A DNA stretch of 34,073 nucleotides from contig JAFAVH010000214.1 in the NCBI GenBank assembly GCA_019242655.1, forward strand, positions 1 to 34,073, in the 5' to 3' direction. Both the position numbers and the translations under genes were made by a program. The notes beneath the pieces were generated by a model. That model was not told the origin of the DNA. It was given only the letters and a program-made list of their open reading frames with translations, and did not search any database. Shown here piece by piece: positions 15,420 through 25,274 of the stretch. The stretch comes from Methylobacteriaceae bacterium. Lineage in GTDB: Bacteria; Pseudomonadota; Alphaproteobacteria; Rhizobiales; Beijerinckiaceae. Within the stretch, counting starts at the first letter, position 1; each line of letters opens with the position of its first letter.

Positions 15420-17027
15420 ATGGCATCTGTCAAAAAAAATTCCAAGAAATCAAAGGCCGGAGCCGGCGCACGCGTGAGTGCCAAGTCCAAATCCCGCAAA
15501 CCGGGTGTGTCCGCGCGAGCGGGCGCGAAGCGCACCATAGCCAAGGCGGCAACCTCTCGCTCCGCCAGCGCGCGGGCGAGCGAAACGCGGAGGGGAAGCG
15601 GCAAGAGCGCCCAAAAGGGCGTCAAAACATTGGTTAGGGCGGCGACCTCGAAGAGCAAAGCGGCGGCGCGCAGGAATTCCGAGAGCAAGAATTCCGGGCG
15701 CAAGGCTATCGAACGCAAGAATACCGAAAGGAAAGCCACGACAGTGGAGATGCGGAAGAAGAAGACGGCGAGCGCCCAGAAGGCCGAGGCGGCTCGCAGC
15801 AACAGCACGGCACGGAAGCCGGTGACGGCGGCTCGTCGGGCCGCCGCCAAGCCGGTCAAGGCTGCCAGCACCACGAAGGCAATCAAGACCGCCAGCCCGA
15901 TCAAGGTTGTAAAGGCGGTCGAACCCCTCGTCGACAAGGTCAAGGATGTGGCCGCCAAAGCCACAAGCTCGACCAAAGCCGCGAGCACGACTAAGGCTGC
16001 GAGCACGGCCAAGCCCACAAGCGCGGCCAAGCCAACAAACACCGCCAAGACGGCTCCTCGTCCTGGCGCAGACGCAGCTCCGCCTGCGAAAACGGCGGCG
16101 CCTAAAGCGGCCGTGCCAAAACCGGCATCGCCGAAGGCGTCCGCGAAACCTGAGGTTTCCGCGAGCACGATTTTGCTGGAAACGATCCGCCGTGTCGGCC
16201 AGGCCGCCGCGGAGGCGAAGGCGCGTGTCGTCGCGCCTGCAAAGGCGGCCGTTGCGAGCGCAGCGTCGGCGGCTCCGGCAAATCGTGCCGAACCGGCGAA
16301 GCCTGCCGCACCGGCGCCGGTGCAAGCCAGCGCTCCGCCCGCAGCACCCGCCCCGGCGCAGCCGGCTTTTGGCGCGGGCGCGCGTCCCGGCTTTCCCGGT
16401 GGGGACGCCCGGTTGCATCATCTTCAGCCCCGGCCGATCGCCAAGCCCACGGGCGCGCGTCCAAGCTTCAAGCTTGAGGAATTCATCGTCTATCCGGCGC
16501 ATGGCGTTGGCCAGATCATCGCCATCGAGGAGCAGGAAGTCGCCGGCTTCAAGCTCGAGCTCTACGTGATCAGCTTCGCCAAGGATAAGATGACGCTGAA
16601 AGTGCCGACGCCGAAAGTGGTCAGCGTCGGCATGCGCAAGCTCGCCGAAGCGCCGCTTGTGCAAAAGGCGCTTGACGTCCTCACCGGCCGGGCGCGGATC
16701 AAGCGCACGATGTGGTCGCGCCGCGCGCAGGAATACGAGGCCAAGATCAATTCCGGCGATCTCATCGCGATCGCCGAAGTGATCCGCGACCTCTATCGCT
16801 CCGAGGCGCAGCCGGAACAGTCTTATTCCGAACGCCAGCTCTACGAAGCAGCCCTCGACCGCATGGCGCGCGAGATCGGCGCGGTGCAGAAGCTGACGGA
16901 AACGGAAACGCTGAAGCTGATCGACACGCAGCTGCAGAAGGGTCCCCGCCGCGGCGTGAAGCCTGAAGGCGAGGGCGAATCCGAAGGCGCGGAAGGCGAG
17001 GCCGAGGTCGAGGATGCCGCGGCGTAA
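15420..17027 (+). CDS. carD: CarD family transcriptional regulator with very long Lys/Ala/Ser/Pro-rich N-terminal extension
   Basis: C-terminal CarD domain (FIVYPAHGVGQIIAIEEQEVAGFKLELYVISFAKDKMTLKVPTPKVVSVGMRKL ... RRAQEYEAKINSGDLIAIAEVIRDLYRSEAQPEQSYSERQLYEAALDRMAREI); ~345-aa KA-rich N-tail; ATG 15420 after GGCAGGAG. Confidence 0.93.
   Translation: MASVKKNSKKSKAGAGARVSAKSKSRKPGVSARAGAKRTIAKAATSRSASARASETRRGSGKSAQKGVKTLVRAATSKSKAAARRNSESKNSGRKAIERKNTERKATTVEMRKKKTASAQKAEAARSNSTARKPVTAARRAAAKPVKAASTTKAIKTASPIKVVKAVEPLVDKVKDVAAKATSSTKAASTTKAASTAKPTSAAKPTNTAKTAPRPGADAAPPAKTAAPKAAVPKPASPKASAKPEVSASTILLETIRRVGQAAAEAKARVVAPAKAAVASAASAAPANRAEPAKPAAPAPVQASAPPAAPAPAQPAFGAGARPGFPGGDARLHHLQPRPIAKPTGARPSFKLEEFIVYPAHGVGQIIAIEEQEVAGFKLELYVISFAKDKMTLKVPTPKVVSVGMRKLAEAPLVQKALDVLTGRARIKRTMWSRRAQEYEAKINSGDLIAIAEVIRDLYRSEAQPEQSYSERQLYEAALDRMAREIGAVQKLTETETLKLIDTQLQKGPRRGVKPEGEGESEGAEGEAEVEDAAA
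15966..16055 (+). repeat. Five tandem 18-bp units encoding SSTKAA-STTKAA-STAKPT-SAAKPT-NTAKTA in the carD N-tail
   Basis: Read in the carD frame. Confidence 0.8.
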
Positions 17028-23220: not shown

Positions 23221-24108
23221 CTATCCGACGAGTCCGCGCGCGTTGAGCCACTCTTCCATCGCGGCATTCACCGCGTCGGGCGCGTCCTGCTGCACCCAAT
23301 GCGAAGCTTGCGGCAATCTGCGCAGCGTGAAATCGTCGACGAGACCATCATAGCCCTCGGTCAGCTCGAGACCGAGCGCAACGTCGTGCTCGCCCCAGAT
23401 CATGAGTGTTGGAACCTGCACCGGCGGGGACGGCGCAGATTTCACGAAGGCCAACGCGTTGGCGCGATAATAGTTGAGCATCGCCGTCATGGCGCCGGGT
23501 CGCGTCGCATTGGCGCGGTAACGGGCGAGCACGTCGGGCGGAAATGCATCGGGATTTTGCGCCATGCCGGTGAACACGCGTTCGACCGCGCGTGCGCCGG
23601 CATAAGTCAGCGCCGCTTCCGGCAGCCATGGCAGCTGGAAGAACAAGACATACCAGGAGCGCAAGCGCTGCGCCCAGGAATGCCGGATGACGCGACGAAA
23701 GACATCGGGATGCGGCACGTTCATCACAATCAGCGTGTCGAGCGGCACGGCGCGTGCGATGGCAACGCTCCAGGCGATCACCGCACCCCAATCATGACCG
23801 ATGAGCAACTTGCGGCGCGCGCCAAGTGCGCTGAACAAAGCAGCGACATCGTCGACGAGATGGCGCAATTCGTAGGCCGCGCGATCGCTCGGCCGCGTCG
23901 TGTCGCCATAACCGCGCATGTCAGGCGCGATGACGTGCCACCCGAGCCGTGCAAGAGGCATAAGCTGATGCCGCCAGGAGAAGCGAGCTTCGGGGAAGCC
24001 GTGAAGTAAAAGCGCGATGTCGTCGCCATGACCGCATTCGTCGCAGGCGAAGGCGATGCCGTTGGCATTCACACTGCGCTGAACGATGCGGAAATCTTCG
24101 GTCATCAA
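23221..24108 (-). CDS. Alpha/beta hydrolase (epoxide hydrolase/haloalkane dehalogenase-like)
   Basis: LLLHGFPEARFSWRHQLMPLARLGWHVIAPDMRGYGDTTRP ... LLIGHDWGAVIAW ... PTLMIWGEHDVAL. Confidence 0.93.
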   Translation of the reverse strand: MMTEDFRIVQRSVNANGIAFACDECGHGDDIALLLHGFPEARFSWRHQLMPLARLGWHVIAPDMRGYGDTTRPSDRAAYELRHLVDDVAALFSALGARRKLLIGHDWGAVIAWSVAIARAVPLDTLIVMNVPHPDVFRRVIRHSWAQRLRSWYVLFFQLPWLPEAALTYAGARAVERVFTGMAQNPDAFPPDVLARYRANATRPGAMTAMLNYYRANALAFVKSAPSPPVQVPTLMIWGEHDVALGLELTEGYDGLVDDFTLRRLPQASHWVQQDAPDAVNAAMEEWLNARGLVG

Positions 24109-24294
24109 AGGAAGCGCCTTTCGCGCGGAAAAGAGTGCTTACGCGCCGCTACGGCAAGCTTTCATGCCGCAAGCGCGAGATTGCTGTCCCGCAGGACACA
24201 CCGGCACTGTGCAATCTCCCACAAACATCATCCGCGGCGGCCGCTATACCTCTCGTCACCGAATAAGCCGTACGGCCAAACCAGGAGATTTAAA

Positions 24295-24510
24295 ATGCAT
24301 ATTCTTCGGATTGCTTTGCTGGGTAGCGCATTGCTCGCCGCTCCCTCCGCTTTCGCTGAAGGTCCGGAAGGTCACACCCCGGCGCAGATCGCGCAGGCCG
24401 CCCCCGAGGGCCATACGCAGGCGCAGGTCGCGCAGGCGGCTCCCGAAGGGCAATCGCAAGCGCAGGTCGCCCAGGCGGCTCCCGAAGGACAGACGCAGGC
24501 GCAAGTCTGA
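24295..24510 (+). CDS. Small secreted repeat peptide (71 aa; predicted signal peptide plus 13-aa tandem repeats)
   Basis: MHILRIALLGSALLAAPSAFA|EGPEGHTPAQIAQAAPEGHTQAQVAQAAPEGQSQAQVAQAAPEGQTQAQV; AGGAGA RBS 8 bp upstream of ATG. Confidence 0.8.
   Translation: MHILRIALLGSALLAAPSAFAEGPEGHTPAQIAQAAPEGHTQAQVAQAAPEGQSQAQVAQAAPEGQTQAQV
24367..24507 (+). repeat. Tandem 39-bp repeats (3.6 units) encoding EG(H/Q)(T/S)(P/Q)AQ(I/V)AQAAP
   Basis: Units at 24367-24405, 24406-24444, 24445-24483, partial 24484-24507. Confidence 0.9.
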
Positions 24511-24621: not shown

Positions 24622-24698
24622 GGTCCCGTAGCTCAGCAGGATAGAGCAGCGGTTTCCTAAACCGAAGGTCACAGGTTCGAATCCTGTCGGGACCGCCA
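24622..24698 (+). tRNA. tRNA-Arg (anticodon CCT, 24656-24658), CCA encoded
   Basis: GGTCCCG acceptor pairs with CGGGACC; D-arm GCTCAGCAGGATAGAGC, anticodon loop TTCCTAA, T-arm ACAGGTTCGAATCCTGT, GCCA end. Confidence 0.97.
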
Positions 24699-24794: not shown

Positions 24795-25274
24795 ATGAGC
24801 AGTCCTGCGGCTGATCAATGGAGCATAGTCGCCTACGAAGTGAGAATGCTTCGGGCCACTTACGAAATTGTGCTCAATTCTGGTGAGCTGCAAAAGCTCT
24901 CGAAAGTAGTTCAAAACGCTCTCGAAGAAAGCGCCGTTCTTCACACTCGCATTCTTTGCGATATCTTTCTTTCTAACTCGGGAGGCGGAGACGACATAAT
25001 ATTGTCGCGGCTCATGCCCGATTGGCAGCGCCGCAACAAGACGGAATATGATACGCTGAAGGAACTAGTTGCGAGATTACGAACGCAATATGGCAATGCC
25101 AACAACGCAAACTCGCATTGTTGGGTATTCAATAAAATGATGGCGCACCCCACGAGGCACAGAGGCGTTACGTATGATTATACGTCTATCCTCACCGACC
25201 TCCGCTCTATTCTTGAAGAAATTATCACCGAAATCGAATCTTTGCGAAGGCAGCCCTTCAAGTGGGCTTGGTGA
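24795..25274 (+). CDS. Hypothetical protein (159 aa), AT-richer than surroundings, downstream of tRNA-Arg
   Basis: Complete ORF MSSPAADQWSIVAYEVRMLRATYEIVLNSGELQKLSKVVQ...; no family recognised. Confidence 0.65.
   Translation: MSSPAADQWSIVAYEVRMLRATYEIVLNSGELQKLSKVVQNALEESAVLHTRILCDIFLSNSGGGDDIILSRLMPDWQRRNKTEYDTLKELVARLRTQYGNANNANSHCWVFNKMMAHPTRHRGVTYDYTSILTDLRSILEEIITEIESLRRQPFKWAW

Follow-up and report, generated by a model that had tools for sequence, protein, structure and literature searches.

The precursor of yeast alpha-factor (MF-alpha-1) consists of a signal peptide followed by tandem units of ~13 residues. YjfN of E. coli is a small periplasmic activator of DegP, and the curli subunit CsgA is built from ~22-residue units with a Ser/Gln/Asn/Gln pattern and is encoded in a dedicated operon. 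The 34,073-nucleotide stretch of Methylobacteriaceae DNA analysed here, called the window, contains a 71-residue ORF whose product resembles each of these in part. With the alpha-factor precursor it shares a signal peptide and tandem units of ~13 residues, but it is bacterial and has neither Kex2-like dibasic spacers nor a receptor system. As with YjfN, the proteins of its family are small and exported and some are encoded beside an HtrA/DegP-like gene; no likeness in sequence is known, however, the family has tandem repeats, and the window copy has no protease neighbour. Like CsgA the peptide has Gln-containing repeats and a predicted export, whereas the locus has neither ~22-residue Ser/Gln/Asn/Gln units nor a dedicated operon. 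Alphaproteobacterial tandem-repeat proteins are also represented by the TRPs of Ehrlichia, immunodominant proteins of an obligate pathogen (PMC7486380) that are not known to be related in sequence to the present family. Secreted repeat peptides are already known as a kind; in the literature searched, the unit strings occur in no paper, no description of the family was found, and the combination of a fixed 14-residue PEG unit with protease and regulator neighbours is undescribed.

The repeat gene and its product

The ORF encodes MHILRIALLGSALLAAPSAFA followed by EGPEGHTPAQIAQAAPEGHTQAQVAQAAPEGQSQAQVAQAAPEGQTQAQV, or by segments MHILRIALLGSALLAAPSAFA-EGPEGHTPAQIAQAA-PEGHTQAQVAQAA-PEGQSQAQVAQAA-PEGQTQAQV (Table 1). 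An earlier note on this DNA had placed the gene at exactly these coordinates behind a good ribosome-binding site, and a GGAG-type site occupies the equivalent place in most of 23 relatives. Other frames are also kept open by the repeat; the frame was chosen because of the ribosome-binding site, the signal peptide and the in-frame relatives, not from the ORF alone.

The strongest tandem array found by TRF in the window is located at 24381-24507 (period 39, 3.3 copies, 82% match, score 168; the runner-up scores 68). The 13-residue repeat described earlier is thereby confirmed with a small correction of register: it is best framed from PEG at residue 24, which makes three complete units plus a fourth of 9 residues, or 3.7 units rather than the 3.6 claimed. 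Pooled comparison of the units yields pS of 0.60 versus pN of 0.09, a dN/dS of about 0.08, and this dominance of synonymous differences agrees with the previous proposal that the repeat is maintained as protein. Four paralogue pairs between the window's own genome (G000) and its sister species (G001), C125/C233, C314/C272, C68/C260 and C43/C105, have dN/dS of 0.11-0.19, in the same range as the 0.08 of a neighbouring LysR gene, indicating that the repeat part of the relatives is conserved much like an ordinary protein; the window gene is not among these pairs, as the sister species lacks its orthologue. The ORF is a real small gene, selected at the protein level.

Against the N-terminal segment of the window peptide, 13 of 14 signal peptides of the family score 32-56, whereas unrelated control signal peptides have a median of 13 and a best score of 35. 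The sole control scoring above 35 is itself a family member with an apparent frameshift within its first units (L027, G195:C79). The shared pattern is M-x-x-L-K-I-A-L-L-G-x-A-L-L...AxA with a core of LKIALLGxALL, and the window peptide carries a cleavable-type signal peptide of this kind. What had previously been called signal-peptide-like is therefore borne out by a specific likeness, from which we infer export and signal-peptidase cleavage after AFA.

The mature peptide of 50 residues would have a net charge of -5 and contains no Lys, Arg or aromatic residues and, as already observed, no Cys; each unit contains Glu, and His is present in two units. Disorder-promoting residues make up 82% of the chain, and its charge-hydropathy value is negative. 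AlphaFold2 predicts no fold and no strand (mean pLDDT 56), a low confidence that is weak evidence for disorder because the alignment had only two rows. Composition and model together suggest that the mature peptide is probably intrinsically disordered.

Table 1. Positions of the repeat gene, its elements and its flanks in the window
Feature	Position	Strand	Basis or remark
Divergent alpha/beta hydrolase gene	23221..24108	-	PF00561
Candidate operator GTGCAATCTCCCAC, weak GTG-N8-CAC copy	24209..24222	+	inferred from family pattern
Ribosome-binding site AGGAG	24283..24287	+	7 nt before ATG
PEG-repeat peptide CDS, 71 aa	24295..24510	+	sequence; in-frame paralogues in own genome and sister species
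Predicted Sec signal peptide MHILRIALLGSALLAAPSAFA	24295..24357	+	likeness to family signal peptides; cut after AFA inferred
Tandem 13-residue units PEG-[HQ]-[TS]-[QP]-AQ-[VI]-AQAA, 3.7 copies	24364..24507	+	TRF, unit alignment, permutation test
Strong hairpin after stop codon	24529..24556	+	12-bp stem, no U-run; z -2.9
tRNA-Arg(CCT)	24622..24698		other flank of the gene
ORF, 159 aa, directly after tRNA-Arg	24795..25274	+	no Pfam match

A lineage-restricted family of repeat genes

Judged by sequence, the window gene belongs to a multi-copy family of PEG-repeat genes for which neither Pfam nor NCBIfam holds a description. When the window peptide and six relatives were scanned against both collections, only noise resulted, with nothing above a curated cut-off, consistent with the earlier statement that no family was recognised; one relative with GNFVAGKPEG repeats scores 25.3 bits against MORN (PF02493, cut-off 22.5), yet no individual stretch of it passes, and a PDB sequence search with one relative returned no match. 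Behind the LKIALLGxALL signal peptide, members carry 3-13 units of the form xAPEG-x6-ASY, almost always 14 residues long and with PEG in about 98% of units. A count over the 89 units of 18 proteins gives 87 for each of P, E and G, 80 for A at +9, 65 for S at +10 and 51 for Y at +11, while other positions vary. The spacing from PEG to PEG is 14 in nearly all copies from genera g15 and g64 and in the paralogues from g1, the genus of G000 and G001. The window gene too repeats its P-E-G core regularly in at least three tandem units, but at a spacing of 13, and it lacks the Y column.

A single-sequence search identified the paralogues C314 (91 aa, unit PEGQTQPQIASYK) and C125 (78 aa) in the window's own genome, and C272 and C233 are members in the sister species. 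Profiles A1 and A2, built from members of these two genomes, match proteins like MKVLKIALFGAALLIPAAAFASYAPEGNGHVDVANYAAPEGNGNVNSASYAAPEG... in two further genera, so that the architecture of signal peptide and repeat is kept across three genera. In the sampled genomes of the window organism's bacterial family, profile A2 is positive in 17 of 397 (14 of 332 of good quality), representing 3 of 43 genera. The two positive genomes of an order-wide sample both belong to that bacterial family, and the sole positive of a class-wide sample is the window's own genome. On these searches the PEG-repeat genes are confined to a few related genera within a single bacterial family. A close relative, L006, is a Methylobacteriaceae MAG. 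The pmoA gene, present in three of five g64 genomes tested and absent from two, suggests that g64 could correspond to the methanotrophs Methylocella/Methylocapsa.

Permutation of the window unit order reproduced the similarity in 0 of 2000 trials against each of C314, C272, C125 and G064, and in 3 of 2000 against G078; the similarity is not compositional, since permuted unit order destroys it. Unit number differs between species, from 3 to 13, and is 5 and 6 in G064 and G099, the g64 genomes having an atpC-adjacent gene and the most similar flanks. With many homologues carrying both a signal peptide and the repeat, the lone peptide of the earlier note turns out to be one of several paralogues in a multi-copy family limited to its lineage.

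The genus g1 also carries repeats of an 11-residue GNFVAGKPEG unit, in C68, C43 and C256 of G000 and in C260, C105, C294 and the degenerate C185 of G001. By the permutation test the window unit is not directly related to this unit (311/2000), and the two sets appear to be joined through intermediates only, the GNFVAGKPEG set being more distant (C68-G110_C69, 0/2000; C68-G015_C52, 6/2000; G015_C52-G064, 0/2000). A long KPESNG/APQGNG repeat gene was also observed (L106/L120 and L087; G135:C71 and C195), apparently broken in G135, where its own repeats leave it divided between the ends of two contigs; in genes of this type, L119 included, the repeat region has a Cys close to either end. Matches L005, L009, L010, L118, L026 and L029 are unrelated proteins. 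Three Klebsiella matches from a plasmid tblastn are weak (31-32% identity), and the one inspected is located between annotated genes by repB and is not a relative.

Neighbours and flanking elements

The window copy lies between the hydrolase and tRNA genes that had been named as its flanks, and has no LysR, HtrA or ATP synthase neighbour. Elsewhere a LysR-type regulator of DDLLxFVxVVER type adjoins the repeat gene, divergent and upstream at C314 and C272, and convergent and downstream at G015_C48, G135_C26, G110_C73, G078_C26 and G156_C38. The regulators of g1 and g15 are 48-50% identical, and because the g15 loci share wider synteny, the seven adjacencies amount to about two independent cases. 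Six loci, distributed over three genomes and two genera, have a gene for an HtrA-type protease (Trypsin_2 and PDZ) directly next to a GNFVAGKPEG or KPEGNG repeat gene (C68, C43, C260, C105, C185 and G015_C52), with up to three pairs per genome, whereas the window copy, C314, C125 and the g64 copies have no such neighbour. In g1 protease identity is 62-64% from locus to locus and 82-88% from one species to the other, indicating that the pair was duplicated and retained; since these pairs are duplicates, the adjacency represents about two independent cases across genera. Pairs of repeat peptide and HtrA are found at L078, L079, L080, L081, L114 and L084, three of them in G001, where at C185 the repeat peptide is degenerate while the paired protease gene stays open. 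The g64 copies adjoin the ATP synthase operon in convergent orientation. The recurrent LysR and HtrA neighbours suggest regulated stress or quality-control ties, with the window copy having neither.

In the sister species the region by the syntenic hydrolase differs and holds no copy of the repeat gene, in an assembly of 350 contigs and 91% completeness whose gaps are a caveat, so the window gene either arrived recently or has disappeared from the sister species, and this paralogue may be dispensable. The nitronate monooxygenase of the right flank, sought as a marker of the orthologous site, was not found in G001. The ORF directly after tRNA-Arg could mark a small tRNA-linked insertion. A second family of small proteins, membrane-bound or exported and carrying a GLAST motif, is encoded directly downstream of C314 and C125; its genes (L002:1838-1993, L003:1712-1933 and orthologues) were set aside, being limited to the window's genus and absent from the window locus.

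In 10 of 23 family genes a palindromic GTG-N8-CAC element precedes the start by 86-123 nt, compared with 1.7 expected and a maximum of 7 in shuffled sequences; this count overstates the effective support, some members being orthologues and the shuffling mononucleotide. GTGTGATTACACAC and GTGTGAAATCCCAC are the best copies. The strict form GTGTGAWWWCMCAC has 0-5 sites per genome searched (0 matches for the reversed control pattern), several of which lie directly upstream of the family genes C125, C233 and those of G064, G099 and G208; other strict sites precede unrelated ORFs. The element is a candidate operator, a lead and not a result. An EcfG-type promoter (GGAAC-N15-18-[CG]GTT) is absent upstream of all 23 members. 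The hairpin behind the stop codon is possibly the transcript 3' end; a scan of the window locus accepted no intrinsic terminator, this hairpin included.

Possible roles of the repeat peptide

The reading preferred here, to which we assign a probability of about one half, is that the product is exported by Sec and acts in the envelope as an intrinsically disordered, multivalent linear-motif peptide. After synthesis and Sec export, the signal peptidase would cut after AFA to release an acidic, unstructured chain of ~50 residues displaying four PEG motifs at fixed spacing. Each unit would be a short linear motif, and the peptide, periplasmic or extracellular, would serve as a multivalent ligand or spacer whose reach and avidity depend on how many units it has. 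Multivalent binding is likewise a proposal; an envelope quality-control partner, the HtrA/DegP PDZ protease, is speculative because HtrA adjoins GNFVAGKPEG-type relatives only. Alternatively, the PEG-only core could be a simple elastic spacer.

It is unlikely, but deserves consideration, that the exported chain is a polyprotein cut, for some paralogues by the adjacent HtrA, into signalling or antimicrobial peptides of ~13 residues. Near-identical tandem units behind a signal peptide are consistent with such a precursor, as are an HtrA-type protease gene beside some relatives and a LysR-type regulator beside others in two genera and differing orientation. Nevertheless, a constant cleavage site, dibasic or otherwise, is absent, the mature part in the window lacks K and R, and its locus has no gene for a receptor, exporter, maturation enzyme or protease. 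DegP-type proteases, moreover, do not normally make defined peptides.

A role as client, sink or allosteric activator of HtrA/DegP under envelope stress, in the manner of YjfN, draws on the six protease and repeat pairs in three genomes and on their duplication and retention, and is nonetheless rather improbable, since it applies to the GNFVAGKPEG/KPEGNG relatives only. The window copy lies outside that subgroup, its unit being linked to theirs via intermediates alone and no protease gene adjoining it, just as it lies outside the LysR-linked one. A broader proposal, doubtful at present, is that exported repeat peptides are tunable multivalent ligands or substrates of co-evolving HtrA proteases; if true, the HtrA/repeat-peptide system would be a new control of envelope proteolysis or signalling by unit number.

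There is little to recommend a cell-surface role as an amyloid or as part of a structural or adhesive matrix: the product is exported, repetitive and Gln/Ala-rich, and unit number ranges from 3 to 13 between species, but it has only ~50 residues, its units lack aromatics, no strand is predicted, and PEG in each unit disfavours beta stacking. Neither the Ser-x5-Gln-x4-Asn-x5-Gln pattern of curli nor csg, secretion or nucleator genes are found in the window sequence and neighbours. The earlier suggestion of an exported disordered, adhesive or amyloid-prone peptide stands for export and disorder and is unsupported for adhesion and amyloid, there being no curli-like unit, aromatic residue or fold. 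Its alternative of a phase-variable length is unsupported too, the differences in unit number seen here being between species. An acidic metal- or cation-binding peptide would make use of the invariant Glu of PEG, the His in two units and the net charge, and is very improbable given that His is replaced by N, G, S or T in relatives, that EF-hand and RTX spacings are absent, and that the lanmodulin match of one relative (E 0.45) is at noise level. That the ORF is an untranslated repeat open by chance, as its several open frames and the lack of an accepted sigma-70-like promoter at the locus might indicate, is scarcely credible in view of in-frame relatives with signal peptide and ribosome-binding site, low dN/dS and a shared upstream element.

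An apparent oddity thus becomes a definable, unannotated gene family, which annotation pipelines are likely to miss as short and of low complexity. Its two recurrent neighbours, LysR and HtrA, offer a direct experimental entry, and the family is well suited to studying how secreted disordered peptides keep and use a given number of repeats.

Elsewhere in the window, a gene at 15420-17024 (+) encodes a CarD-type transcription factor (CarD_C, CarD_TRCF_RID) whose N-terminal extension of ~340 residues is rich in Lys, Ala, Ser and Pro, resembles histone H1, and contains internal repeats.
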